From contig MNUO01000079.1 of NCBI GenBank assembly GCA_001871015.1, positions 1-14,518 of the forward strand: a DNA stretch of 14,518 nt, given 5' to 3'. A program made the translations under genes and the position numbers. The notes beneath the pieces are model-generated. The model did no database searches. It was not told the DNA's origin and worked only from the letters and a program-made list of their open reading frames with translations. This DNA is from Candidatus Desantisbacteria bacterium CG1_02_38_46 (GTDB taxonomy: Bacteria > Desantisbacteria > UBA1551 > UBA1559). Below, piece after piece: positions 6,470-12,780 of this stretch. The number at the start of each line of letters is the position of its first letter. Within the stretch, counting starts at the first letter, position 1.

Positions 6470-7261
6470 ATGAATACACAAGAAAATCTTTTAAATAATA
6501 GCCCAGTATTCACTTCAAAAGAATATCAGGATGAATTTAAGGAAATAAATACTAAATCTACTGTGCGGACCAAAATAGGCAGATTGCTAAAAAAAGGTAG
6601 AATGGGAACAATGGGCGGCGGGATATATTTTGTTATCCCCCAGGGCTATGATGTAAAGTCATACACTCCAGATAAATTTCTTGCTGCATCAAAAATGCGA
6701 GAGGACGCTGTCATAGGTTATCATTCTGCTTTTGAACTGCTTGGTTATGCTACACAAGTATTCAATACCGTGTATTATATCACTTCGTTGCAAAAGCAAA
6801 TGAAATCTTTTAGAGGAGTTACATATCTTTCGGTCTCTGTGCAAAGACCCCTGCAGGGTAGGGCTAGTTTTGGAATAGAAAAAATAGCAAGGGACAAAGT
6901 AAGAGTTGCGGTGACCAACAAAGAGCGTACGCTTATAGATTGTCTGGATAGACTTGAATATTCCGGTGGATTTGAAGAATTATGCCATTGCGCGGAAGCT
7001 CTTCCATATCTTGACCTGGATTTTGTTTTTGAATATCTTTCTGTTCTGTCAAAGAAAAGTCTTTTTGCAAAAGCAGGATATTTGCTTGAGAAATATAAGG
7101 ATAAATTTTTCTTTGATGAGAAATGGGTAAAGAGATTTATCTCTGAAAGATTTAAGTCTCCGTCTATAGCATATCTTGGAAGTCGCTCGGATGATAATAA
7201 ATTAATAGCGAGATGGAACCTTATGGTTCCCAAAAAATATCTTGTAGAAAGCGAACGTTAA
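6470..7261 (+). CDS. abiEi: AbiEi antitoxin of the type IV AbiE system
   Basis: This 263-residue protein has the AbiEi layout: an N-terminal winged helix (residues 12-60, with VFTSKEYQDEF and TKIGRLLKKGRM), then a larger C-terminal domain with the family stretch AVIGYHSAFELLGYATQ and, further on, VAVTNKERTLIDCLDR. AbiEi counteracts the AbiEii nucleotidyltransferase without binding it directly and represses the operon. ATG 6470 is the first sensible start; its ribosome-binding site is weak (GAAAGAG). Its stop TAA overlaps the AbiEii start as TAATG, the usual coupled arrangement. The gene looks intact. Confidence 0.88.
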   Translation: MNTQENLLNNSPVFTSKEYQDEFKEINTKSTVRTKIGRLLKKGRMGTMGGGIYFVIPQGYDVKSYTPDKFLAASKMREDAVIGYHSAFELLGYATQVFNTVYYITSLQKQMKSFRGVTYLSVSVQRPLQGRASFGIEKIARDKVRVAVTNKERTLIDCLDRLEYSGGFEELCHCAEALPYLDLDFVFEYLSVLSKKSLFAKAGYLLEKYKDKFFFDEKWVKRFISERFKSPSIAYLGSRSDDNKLIARWNLMVPKKYLVESER

Positions 7262-8208
7262 TGCAATATGCTCCTGAATATATAAACAAAATAAGAAATG
7301 GATTTCAGGGTGATTCAGTAGAGAAGGTTTTACGCCTGCAGACTCTGCTTAGTGATTTCAGCAAACACCCTTATTTGAAAGATAGAATAGTACTTAAAGG
7401 TGGGACAGCTATAACACAGTTTCACTTTCAGTTTCCACGTATATCAGTAGACATTGATCTGGACTATATCGGTAGTCCGAAGCTTGAAGGAATGAAGGAG
7501 GAACGCCCAAGATTAGAAGAAACAATGGACCAAATTTTCAAAAGCCAGAAATATGTCTTTGAATGGAGCGAAGATGAGCATGCCGGGAGAAAATGTATGC
7601 TTAAATTTGTAAACTTTCACGGAAACAACGATAACGTTCGTGTGGATATAAATTATCTGATGCGTATACCGGTAATGCAGATTGTCAGGATGAAATCTTT
7701 TAGTTTTGAAGAAGATTTTCATTTAGAATTTCCTGTCCTTCAGTTAGAAGAGTTGTATGCCGGTAAGACAAAAGCTCTTCTGGAAAGGGGTCTGGCACGA
7801 GACCTGTATGACTTATATCGATTGTTAAAAGATAAACTACCTATAGATACAAATATGTGGAGGACTATAACGATTTTATTCTGCTCCTCGTTGAGAGATG
7901 ATTTTAGAAAGTATACATCAAAAAGACTGGATATAGTATCAGAAACAGATGTCTGGACTGCTCTCCATCCTATTTTGAGGTCAGATGAGCGTCCAACAAG
8001 AGAAGAAATGATGAAAATAATTTATCCTTTTATTGAGGAGTTGTTTTCGTTTAAGGAGAATGAGAAGCAATATCTGGATTCGCTGATGAAAGGTGTTTAT
8101 GACCCGTCTTTATTGTTCGGAAAAGGTGCTCTTGCTGAAAAATTAGCAAAGCATCCGGCTCTTTTGTGGAAGGCAAAAAATGTCAGTGAATATCTGACAA
8201 AACAATGA
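7261..8208 (+). CDS. abiEii: AbiEii nucleotidyltransferase toxin
   Basis: A 315-residue protein starting at ATG 7261, one base into the AbiEi stop. Motif I LKGGTAITQF (Gly47-Gly48) plus ISVDIDLDY (Asp64, Asp66) forms the NTase metal site. The later motif with Lys169, Arg180, Asp181 and Asp184 (GKTKALLERGLARDLYDLYR) is the conserved AbiEii signature. Length and motif spacing are normal, so it is probably active. Family members of this type block growth by transferring nucleotides, in some cases to tRNA acceptor ends, and give abortive infection against phage. It ends the coding part of segment C. Confidence 0.9.
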   Translation: MQYAPEYINKIRNGFQGDSVEKVLRLQTLLSDFSKHPYLKDRIVLKGGTAITQFHFQFPRISVDIDLDYIGSPKLEGMKEERPRLEETMDQIFKSQKYVFEWSEDEHAGRKCMLKFVNFHGNNDNVRVDINYLMRIPVMQIVRMKSFSFEEDFHLEFPVLQLEELYAGKTKALLERGLARDLYDLYRLLKDKLPIDTNMWRTITILFCSSLRDDFRKYTSKRLDIVSETDVWTALHPILRSDERPTREEMMKIIYPFIEELFSFKENEKQYLDSLMKGVYDPSLLFGKGALAEKLAKHPALLWKAKNVSEYLTKQ

Positions 8209-8726: not shown

Positions 8727-8755
8727 TTGCAAAAGTTTCATATTTATGGTATAAT
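8727..8755 (+). promoter_or_regulatory. promoter-like sequence abutting the smpB start
   Basis: TTGCAA (8727-8732), 17 nt, TATAAT (8750-8755), very similar to the AbiE promoter. Transcription would start near 8762, after the ATG at 8758, so it cannot serve smpB in the usual way. It may be coincidental or decayed. Confidence 0.35.
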
Positions 8756-8757
8756 AT

Positions 8758-9210
8758 ATGGCAGAGAAAATAATAGCGGTAAATCGCAAGGCATATCACA
8801 ATTATTTTATCCTTGAGACATACGAATCTGGACTTGTTTTGACTGGAGGCGAAGTAAAATCTCTTCGTGAAGGTAAGGTCAATCTCGGCGATAGTTTTGG
8901 CAGGATAGAAAAAAATGAAGCATTTTTGTATAATATGCACATAAGCCCGTATTTTTATGATGCTAAAGAAGAATATGACCCTTTACGCACGAGAAAATTG
9001 CTTTTTCACAGGGAAGAAATAAATCGCCTGATTGGTAAAATAAACCAGAAGGGACTTACGCTTATACCATTGAAATTATATTTTAAAAAAGGCAGGGCTA
9101 AAATAGAATTGGGATTAGCAAAAGGCAAGAAATTGCACGATAAACGAGAAGTTTTGAAAAAGAAAGCAGACAAAAGAGAAATTGACAGAGCGATGAGAGG
9201 GAGGGGGTGA
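8758..9210 (+). CDS. smpB: SsrA-binding protein SmpB
   Basis: SmpB binds the tRNA-like domain of tmRNA and brings it to stalled ribosomes for trans-translation. Family blocks are clear: [36 protein letters not shown] and, near the C-terminus, [14 protein letters not shown] with a basic tail ([17 protein letters not shown]). The 150-residue length is normal. ATG 8758 fits the family N-terminus, but there is no ribosome-binding site and a TATAAT ends two bases upstream, so initiation is unusual. Its partner RNA ssrA follows with an overlap: the predicted mature tmRNA starts at 9203, inside the last three codons, and the TGA stop (9208-9210) is largely within the acceptor stem. Confidence 0.95.
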
Positions 9211-9589
9211 AAAGGTTTCGACGGGAATATAGACCAGTGGTTGCATACCGAGAATGTCGGGAATCTCGTTAAATTTCCGGCAAAAACATAAACGCTAACA
9301 CTTTGGTAGCGTAATCCCCCCCTTCTTGCTTTCGTCCCCCTTGTGGGGACTTTCGCAAGAAAGCAGGGGGGCACGTCCTGCCGGTTTCGCCTGCAGGGTC
9401 GGCAAGGGCGTAAGATATGCAGGATAGTCCTGCGTTTTTTGCCTGAGAAGGCAGGATGAAAACTAATCAGGCTGGTCCCGCTTTTATCCCGCATACAGGA
9501 ATGGGCGGGACAAGATTAAATGTATGATAAGTATGTAGTAACTTCTGGGGAGATATTTTCGGACGCGGGTTCGATTCCCGCCACCTCCA
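9203..9589 (+). ncRNA. ssrA: transfer-messenger RNA (tmRNA)
   Basis: The 5' acceptor strand GGGGGTG (9203-9209) pairs with CACCTCC (9582-9588) with one G-U pair, and the discriminator A is 9589. Near the 5' end is the conserved TTCGACGGG. The T arm GCGGG-TTCGATT-CCCGC is at 9565-9581. CCA is not encoded. The tag frame most likely resumes at GGC 9279 and ends at TAA 9312-9314, giving GKNINANTLVA, a plausible degradation tag ending in LVA. A long irregular hairpin (9316-9372, with inner stem GTCCCC/GGGGAC) follows the tag. A T-run right after 9589 may act as terminator. Length, about 387 nt, is normal. The exact resume codon is inferred. Confidence 0.92.
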
Positions 9590-9593
9590 TTTT
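9568..9593 (+). repeat. ssrA 3'-end att copy, left
   Basis: This 26-bp stretch (T loop to just past the discriminator: TTCGATTCCCGCCACCTCCA and flanks) is repeated exactly at 9703-9728. The identity begins at the last T-stem base pairs, as expected for tyrosine-recombinase sites that use the T-loop/3'-end of tRNA-like genes. Confidence 0.8.
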
Positions 9594-9702
9594 TTTCTGA
9601 GAACCCTAAGGGGTGCAGGGGAAAAAATTCTCCTGCGTAGTAGAGAGGGTAACACTCGCCGCAGGCGAGGCCCTAGGGGGTGTAAACCCCATTGGGGACT
9701 GT
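9590..9702. other. scar between the two ssrA 3'-end copies
   Basis: About 109 bp rich in hairpins: GCAGGGGA/TCTCCTGC (around 9616-9638), CTCGCC-gca-GGCGAG (around 9656-9670) and GGGG/CCCC runs at 9674-9696. No gene is seen. It is most simply the residue of an integrated element that lost its genes. Confidence 0.5.
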
Positions 9703-9728
9703 GGTTCGATTCCCGCCACCTCCATTTT
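9703..9728 (+). repeat. ssrA 3'-end att copy, right
   Basis: Exact copy of 9568-9593. The sequence before it (TGTGG) cannot form the T stem with CCCGC, so this copy is not a functional RNA end. It lies 20 bp upstream of the amidase start, so the element end may now supply upstream sequence for that gene. Confidence 0.8.
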
Positions 9729-10873: not shown

Positions 10874-11230
10874 ATGTTTGAACTTAAGGTAAGTGCAAAT
10901 TTTTCAGCAGCACATAAATTGCGTAAATATCAGTGGAAATGTGCCCGGTTACATGGACACAACTGGAAAGTAGATGTTTATATCAGGTCAAATCTCCTCA
11001 ATAAAATTGGAATGATAAAAGATGCCAGAGAAGTAAAGAAAATATTGAAAAAATTTCTGGAGAAGCTGGACCACAAATATTTAAATGAGATGGTGTTTTT
11101 TAAAGAAAGAAATCCCACCTCGGAAAATATTGCCAGGTATATCTATGATGGATTGAAAAAAAGACTGCCGCAGATGGCAGAAGTCCGGGTTCATGAATCC
11201 GATTCAGCAGCAGTCAGTTATCGTGCGTAG
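10874..11230 (+). CDS. queD: 6-carboxytetrahydropterin synthase QueD
   Basis: QueD converts dihydroneopterin triphosphate to 6-carboxytetrahydropterin, the first committed step to preQ0 and queuosine. The 118-residue length is normal. Zinc ligands are His14 (FSAAHKL), His27 and His29 (LHGHNW), with catalytic Cys23 just before. LDHKYLNE, PTSENIARYI and the HES near the C-terminus are the other conserved blocks. It starts at ATG 10874, six bases after the amidase, with no strong ribosome-binding site, and is followed by queC and queE in one operon. Confidence 0.95.
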   Translation: MFELKVSANFSAAHKLRKYQWKCARLHGHNWKVDVYIRSNLLNKIGMIKDAREVKKILKKFLEKLDHKYLNEMVFFKERNPTSENIARYIYDGLKKRLPQMAEVRVHESDSAAVSYRA

Positions 11231-11239
11231 AGAAAAGTT

Positions 11240-11914
11240 GTGAAGAAAGCAATAGTCTTGTTATCCGGTGGCATTGATTCAGCTACAACGCTTTATTGGG
11301 CAAAGACAAAAGGTTATAAGTGTTTCTGTCTTACTTTTGACTATGGGCAGCGTCATAAAAGAGAAATAAAATCCGCACGCGCTATTGCAAGAAAAGTAGC
11401 CTGTCCCCTTTTTGTATTTAAGATAAATCTTCCCTGGAAAGGAAGCACGTTATTTCGCAATTCAGGAAAGATTTCTTTTCCCAAATCTCTTGCCGAAATA
11501 AAAAAAAGAATTCCTTCAACTTATGTTCCTTCAAGAAATACAATTTTTTTAAGCATTGCTCTTTCATATGCTGAATCAATCAGAGCACAGGCAATTTTCA
11601 TCGGAGCAAATGCAATTGACTTCAGCGGTTATCCTGACTGCCGTCCGAATTATTATACCGCTTTCAAAAAAATAGCACGACTTGGAACAAAGTGCGGAGT
11701 AGAAGGGAATCCGATTTCAATTCTGGTGCCATTATTAAAAAAGACAAAGGCACAAATTATAAAATTAGGAAAAAAATTAGGAGTTCCGTTTGAATTGACG
11801 TGGTCCTGTTATGCGGGTAGAAATAAACCCTGCGGTAAATGTGACGCCTGCAGTTTGAGAAAAAAGGGATTTATAGAAGCAGGAATAACAGATGCCTGTG
11901 GTTGCAAAACATGA
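11240..11914 (+). CDS. queC: 7-cyano-7-deazaguanine synthase QueC
   Basis: QueC makes preQ0 from 7-carboxy-7-deazaguanine using ATP and ammonia. The PP-loop LLSGGIDSATTLYWA (residues 7-21) binds ATP. A zinc site is formed by Cys190, Cys198, Cys201 and Cys204 (SCYAGRNKPCGKCDACSLR). The 224-residue length is normal. The start is GTG 11240, nine bases after queD. The stop overlaps the queE start as ATGA, so the two are coupled. Confidence 0.95.
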   Translation: MKKAIVLLSGGIDSATTLYWAKTKGYKCFCLTFDYGQRHKREIKSARAIARKVACPLFVFKINLPWKGSTLFRNSGKISFPKSLAEIKKRIPSTYVPSRNTIFLSIALSYAESIRAQAIFIGANAIDFSGYPDCRPNYYTAFKKIARLGTKCGVEGNPISILVPLLKKTKAQIIKLGKKLGVPFELTWSCYAGRNKPCGKCDACSLRKKGFIEAGITDACGCKT

Positions 11915-12780
11915 CAAAAGGATGGTTGTGCGAAATTTTTGATAGTATTCAGGGAGAGGGAATTTATCTTGGCGTGAGACAGATATTCCTGAGATTTGCT
12001 GGATGCAATTTGCGCTGCGAGTACTGTGATACGCCACAGGCGCTGCGGCGGCATAAATACTGCCGAGCCATGAGCCATGAGTCATGTGTCATGAGTAAAA
12101 TAGAAAATCCAATGACAGTTGATAGCATTATTTTTATTCTAAAAAGTTATTTATCTAACATCCAGTATCCGGGATCTAATATCTATCACTCTGTTTCTTT
12201 AACAGGGGGCGAGCCACTTCTTCAGGTTGATTTCATTAAAGAACTTATTCCACAATTAAAGAAATTGGGATTAAAGATTTATCTCGAGACTAATGGGGTA
12301 CTGCCAGATGCGCTCAAGAAAATTGTTGATGAAGTAGATTTTATTGCAATGGATATCAAGCTGCCCACGGCTATTGGACAGAAGTTGTGGAAGGAACATA
12401 AAAAATTTTTAAAACAGTGTGCAATGAATTACACCACTACAATACTTGATAGAAAAATGAAATGCGCCCTTGTTTTTGTTAAAATTGTAATTACTCCAAG
12501 GACCAGTGGAGGCGAAATTAAGAAGGCGGCAGAATTAATAGCAGAGGTTAATAGAGAGATTCCATTAGTTTTACAACCAGATTCGAAGAAAAGGGACAGT
12601 CCCAGACCCGCCGTGGCGGGTGCCCCGACAACTTCGTCCGTAAATAGTGACGGTCCCCAGGGACAATCCCTATTTTACTATCAGGAAATTGCCTCAAGAA
12701 TTCTAAAGGATGTCCGAATTATTCCACAATTGCATAATGTGTCACAAGCCATTTGTCATTTGTCAAGACCTGACACCTAG
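11911..12780 (+). CDS. queE: 7-carboxy-7-deazaguanine synthase QueE, with insertions
   Basis: QueE is a radical-SAM enzyme that turns 6-carboxytetrahydropterin into 7-carboxy-7-deazaguanine. The N-terminus FDSIQGEGIYLG and the iron-sulfur motif CNLRCEYC (Cys32, Cys36, Cys39) are clear, as are LTGGEPLLQ (98-104) and YLETNGV. At 289 residues it is longer than usual for the family. The excess comes from a repeat-derived block at about residues 227-254 (12591-12674), a heptamer-repeat segment at 53-62, and a tail at 277-289 that reads through repeat-like sequence. The start ATG 11911 overlaps the queC stop. All core motifs are intact, so it may still work. Its stop shares CTAG with the convergent SDR gene. 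Confidence 0.92.
   Translation: MTKGWLCEIFDSIQGEGIYLGVRQIFLRFAGCNLRCEYCDTPQALRRHKYCRAMSHESCVMSKIENPMTVDSIIFILKSYLSNIQYPGSNIYHSVSLTGGEPLLQVDFIKELIPQLKKLGLKIYLETNGVLPDALKKIVDEVDFIAMDIKLPTAIGQKLWKEHKKFLKQCAMNYTTTILDRKMKCALVFVKIVITPRTSGGEIKKAAELIAEVNREIPLVLQPDSKKRDSPRPAVAGAPTTSSVNSDGPQGQSLFYYQEIASRILKDVRIIPQLHNVSQAICHLSRPDT
12069..12096 (+). repeat. 7-bp tandem repeat inside queE
   Basis: Four consecutive heptamers: CATGAGC, CATGAGT, CATGTGT, CATGAGT. They encode MSHESCVMS after the RRHKYC block. Seven is not a multiple of three, so losing or gaining one unit would shift the frame. Confidence 0.8.
12591..12674 (+). repeat. REP-like palindromic insertion inside queE
   Basis: About 84 bp (28 codons) with nested palindromes: GGGAC-A-GTCCC, ACCCGCC-GT-GGCGGGT and GACGGTCCCCAGGGACAATC. 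It ends with CCCTATTT like the other REP-like units. It sits between the conserved LVLQP and QEIASRILK segments of QueE. Confidence 0.65.

Follow-up and report, generated by a model that had tools for sequence, protein, structure and literature searches.

In the insect symbiont Candidatus Carsonella ruddii, the gene for the ribosome-rescue protein SmpB runs into ssrA, the gene for its partner tmRNA, in half of the strains (Hudson, Lau and Williams 2014, PMC4131195). That report, which cites Mao et al. 2009 on the Carsonella overlap, placed the smpB-ssrA overlap in Carsonella and 'nowhere else' and stated the same feedback argument that is considered here. As it was published for Carsonella in 2014, the idea of a non-stop smpB message with feedback is not new. 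The tmRNA database was updated in 2025 (PMC11915505), and no mention of an smpB overlap was found in the passages of that paper that were examined.

Two other systems share features with this arrangement. In Helicobacter, a coding sequence of the FtsW/RodA family runs into a downstream tRNA-Ile gene and a non-stop mRNA is expected on processing (PMC4131195, Table 4). In E. coli, the message for ArfA is made non-stop by an RNase cut and is held down by trans-translation (PMC8012679). The messages of arfA and brfA, which belong to a rescue pathway, lose their stop codons through RNase III or a terminator, and the product is tagged while trans-translation works (PMC8012679). Trans-translation is efficient up to approximately 9 nt past the P site (PMC8012679).

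The window analysed here is the whole stretch of 14,518 nucleotides from the uncultivated Candidatus Desantisbacteria bacterium CG1_02_38_46 (contig MNUO01000079.1). An 8-nt overlap of smpB and the tmRNA gene in this window is confirmed as real and as uncommon (Table 1). As in Carsonella, smpB continues on the same strand into the mature tmRNA, and maturation should give a non-stop smpB mRNA. The Carsonella SmpB lacks the central loop and tail and is encoded by a tiny symbiont genome, whereas the SmpB in the window is complete and belongs to a genome of about 1.7 Mb (88% complete). The idea is therefore known but the lineage is new, being distant from Carsonella and having an intact SmpB tail. 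As with arfA and brfA, it is the message of a rescue pathway that loses its stop. For those genes, however, cleavage takes place at a hairpin within the coding sequence and the regulation has been tested, whereas here the predicted cutter is RNase P, acting at the partner RNA, and the overlap is not conserved. The Helicobacter case differs in that protein and RNA are functionally unrelated and many related genomes share the overlap.

Table 1. Features at and around the smpB-ssrA junction, with positions in the window.
Feature	Position	Strand	Remarks
Promoter-like TTGCAA-17-TATAAT with TG	8727..8755	+	At smpB start; regional match count at chance level
smpB CDS	8758..9210	+	150 aa; stop TGA 9208-9210; C-terminal tail complete
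Expected RNase P cut	between 9202..9203	+	Inferred from the tmRNA 5' end (ARAGORN, Rfam)
8-nt overlap GGGGGTGA	9203..9210	+	5' strand of the tmRNA acceptor stem and one further base; also the last smpB codons and stop
tmRNA (ssrA)	9203..9589	+	ARAGORN; one-piece; tag ANTLVA; CCA not encoded

The original prediction, made by inspection of the sequence, had placed the first base of the tmRNA at 9203 and the smpB stop within its acceptor stem. Both placements hold. ARAGORN and Rfam RF00023 agree on the 5' end, and the position of the stop inside the mature tmRNA, on the same strand, is upheld by the open reading frame, Pfam and the two tmRNA predictors. The RF00023 match spans 9203-9592 with 182.1 bits, against a gathering cut-off of 47, and covers the full model (1-374), with model position 1 at 9203. 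The predicted acceptor stem, GGGGGTG with CACCTCC, has 7 bp (in order G-C, G-C, G-U, G-C, G-C, U-A, G-C). A G3.U70 pair is an established alanine identity element, and the tmRNA in the window has it within a 7-bp acceptor stem. It is therefore unlikely that the G-run is out of register or the TGA misplaced, and the predicted tmRNA start is well fixed.

The SmpB encoded in the window matches Pfam PF01668 over profile positions 1-142 of 143 (E 2.1e-59), has the HDKR tail, and is 75% identical to the SmpB of the nearest relative. Since smpB and the tmRNA are both full length, the overlap is not an artefact of a chance open reading frame. The frame in which smpB enters the junction was set by alignment to the nearest relative, with AGAGCGATGAGAGGGAGG in the window and AGAGTGATGCGCGGCAGG in the relative. 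The smpB stop is the tmRNA's own conserved UGA at tmRNA nucleotides 6-8, a point that separates the window from Carsonella. This UGA is present in every GGGGNUGA-type tmRNA, so that a stop there comes free for one in three frames. Codon 149 of smpB begins at 9202; the expected cut would thus leave 148 full smpB codons plus an A, with no stop. There is a strong match to RNase P RNA in the same genome.

The tmRNA tag at 9294-9314 is very short, with six encoded residues and an ending other than LAA, and is identical in the window and the nearest relative, the two genomes of the phylum that were compared. Just 3' of the tag stop, at about 9320-9364, is an insertion of about 45 nt that forms a long C-run/G-run hairpin and is missing from the tmRNA of the relative (387 versus 343 nt). 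The last 30 or so bases of the tmRNA (9561-9593) are repeated 135 bp downstream at 9696-9728 with 91% identity and a broken T stem. This copy resembles the displaced 3' end that an element leaves on integrating into a tmRNA gene; the gap between the two copies has no room for an integrase gene. A competing leader structure was also considered, as the minimum-energy fold pairs the 3' strand of the tmRNA with the 3' end of smpB. It was dropped because the normal acceptor stem, when forced, costs just 0.8 kcal/mol.

At the other end of smpB, a good extended -10 sequence (TATAAT) ends 2 bases 5' of the ATG and there is no evident Shine-Dalgarno sequence, so that the smpB message may lack a leader or the promoter may start within the gene. 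Further upstream is a gene for an AbiEii-type nucleotidyltransferase (7213-8208), directly preceded by an open reading frame of no assigned family (6470-7261), possibly making an AbiE-like toxin-antitoxin pair. Downstream, a run of QueD-like (PTPS), QueC and QueE-like (radical SAM) genes (10874-12780) forms a probable operon for the queuosine precursor.

Conservation of the overlap was assessed within the phylum by comparison of two genomes, that of the window and G001, from the same order and another family. G001 has the same smpB-ssrA pair, with three additional smpB codons before a TAA stop and a spacer of 79 nt, and no overlap. The overlap is thus not conserved in the single phylum relative compared. 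The difference may reflect the loss of a spacer in the window or the gain of one in the relative.

The rarity of the arrangement was addressed by a scan of approximately 85,000 species for an GGGGNTGANNNGGNTTCGAC tmRNA start with an H/Y-DKR SmpB tail 45-75 nt upstream. A total of 23 loci were identified; such counts are lower bounds, as the pattern does not catch long overlaps or pairs with a different tmRNA start or SmpB tail. Frame analysis of the 23 revealed exactly one further 8-nt overlap, locus L063 in a metagenome-assembled genome of the Bacillota (JAAZMP010000144.1). There, smpB ends RQFRG-stop on GGGGGTGA, and ARAGORN starts the tmRNA at the same base as in the overlap of the window. 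The spacers in the family of L063 are 3, 4, 8, 13, 15, 17, 21, 41, 50, 52, 52, 76 and 84 nt. One more locus, L110, came from a wider tail pattern applied to phylum and order samples, together with the first pattern applied to the class of L063. Its overlap is 1 nt, the G of the smpB stop TAG being the first base of the tmRNA. L110 is the only close junction among 25 genomes of its order. In a sample of 386 diverse genomes taken with that of the window, five close junctions were present and only the window had an overlap.

When duplicate loci are merged, 62 distinct close junctions remain. Two have a spacing of -8 nt, one of -1 nt, 41 of 0-6 nt and 18 of more than 6 nt; because the search patterns favour short spacers, this distribution is valid for close junctions only. 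Spacers of zero, in which the stop abuts the tmRNA start, or of 1-5 nt are found in several lineages (L061, L107, L108, L112, L113 and others). In one phylum sample, several genomes have zero spacing (TAA then GGGG), and a 1-nt spacer is common to three of the six genomes of one small phylum. Five matches (L114, L119, L120, L121 and L128) were rejected as not being smpB, having no open frame of at least 80 codons at the match. The overlap seems to be a rare extreme in a continuum of drifting, compacted spacers.

From these comparisons, loss of the spacer in compact operons is the best explanation of the overlap. The reading considered probable for the window is a lineage-specific compaction, in which the spacer was removed or was never present and smpB came to end on the UGA of the tmRNA, with a passive effect and not a switch. 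Under this reading, ssrA RNA would come at least partly by read-through from smpB, co-transcription being assumed, and RNase P would cut at 9202/9203. SmpB would be made normally by any ribosome arriving at the UGA ahead of transcription and folding of the tmRNA 3' strand. A ribosome reading the UGA would cover the acceptor strand, and RNase P would need that strand paired with bases about 390 nt downstream; the two would be mutually exclusive on the shared bases. Since transcription reaches the 3' strand last, SmpB could be completed by early ribosomes before maturation is possible. It had been proposed that one transcript gives either SmpB or tmRNA, which is too strict, since SmpB can be finished ahead of transcription of the 3' half of the tmRNA.

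Later ribosomes would meet a cut message. After the cut, the smpB remnant would be a non-stop message of 148 codons. A ribosome at its end would hold Gly148 in the P site and have no codon to read in the A site, a classical substrate of trans-translation. Ribosomes stalled there would be rescued by tmRNA-SmpB, adding ANTLVA to an SmpB that lacks only its last two residues. The life of the smpB message would be passively shortened, possibly with weak negative feedback, in place of an evolved switch. Processing of the tmRNA probably truncates the smpB message, and the SmpB yield of each transcript is expected to be modestly capped, not decided by an either/or choice.

An alternative is that the overlap is harmless, with a promoter within smpB driving most ssrA expression and the smpB messages separate or far fewer, so that SmpB output is hardly touched. 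There are promoter-like matches inside smpB at 8906-8934 and 9082-9109, and tmRNA is usually far more abundant than the smpB message. However, matches of this kind number four in the region versus 3.2 expected from shuffled sequence, which is the level of chance, and the two inside smpB were set aside as evidence for an ssrA promoter on that ground. Any smpB transcripts reaching the 3' end of the tmRNA would be cut anyway. This alternative is considered unlikely.

A selected self-limiting circuit, balancing both outputs per transcript through loss of smpB messages on maturation and breakdown of their SmpB product by way of trans-translation, is distinctly improbable. The original prediction had proposed both that maturation strips smpB of its stop and that this may form a self-limiting circuit; the geometry bears out the first part for a shared transcript, and the second is opposed by the spacer of the relative and the isolation of L063 and L110. 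The geometry of the overlap would permit a circuit, and overlaps have arisen separately in Carsonella (PMC4131195), the window, L063 and L110. In addition, spacers of 0-5 nt are common, and a cut there would leave 3-8 nt, including the stop, past the last sense codon; this is within the range of about 9 nt (PMC8012679), so tmRNA could compete with release factors on such remnants. Against this, the overlap has not been retained in the nearest relative, in the family of L063 or in the order of L110, and only half of Carsonella strains have it (PMC4131195). The scan of some 85,000 species, moreover, gave just one 8-nt overlap among the canonical close junctions. These isolated overlaps amid relatives with longer spacers show no sign of selective retention. 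The pattern of conservation argues against a dedicated self-limiting circuit, the part of this that concerns the phylum resting on one relative.

An assembly or base error that brought the genes too close is most improbable: the contig is a single metagenome-assembled draft from one genome of the species, but both genes are full length and smpB is in frame, the acceptor stem keeps its 7 bp with the G.U pair, and the smpB tail aligns with that of the relative up to the junction.

A broader reading is that an smpB stop within a few bases of the start of the mature tmRNA, or inside it, is a recurrent regulatory arrangement. This is very doubtful. If it were so, maturation by RNase P would leave smpB messages that extend 3-8 nt past the last sense codon or lack a stop altogether, and SmpB synthesis would itself be sensitive to trans-translation in many lineages, with the true overlaps as the strongest form.

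The overlap alone establishes no new mechanism. It does update the 2014 statement that confined such overlaps to Carsonella, as an 8-nt overlap is present in at least two other lineages and a 1-nt overlap in one more. Intact smpB genes of ordinary size can end inside the tmRNA. Among closely spaced pairs, spacers of 0-6 nt are common, and these provide cheap cases in which to ask if tmRNA processing limits SmpB.
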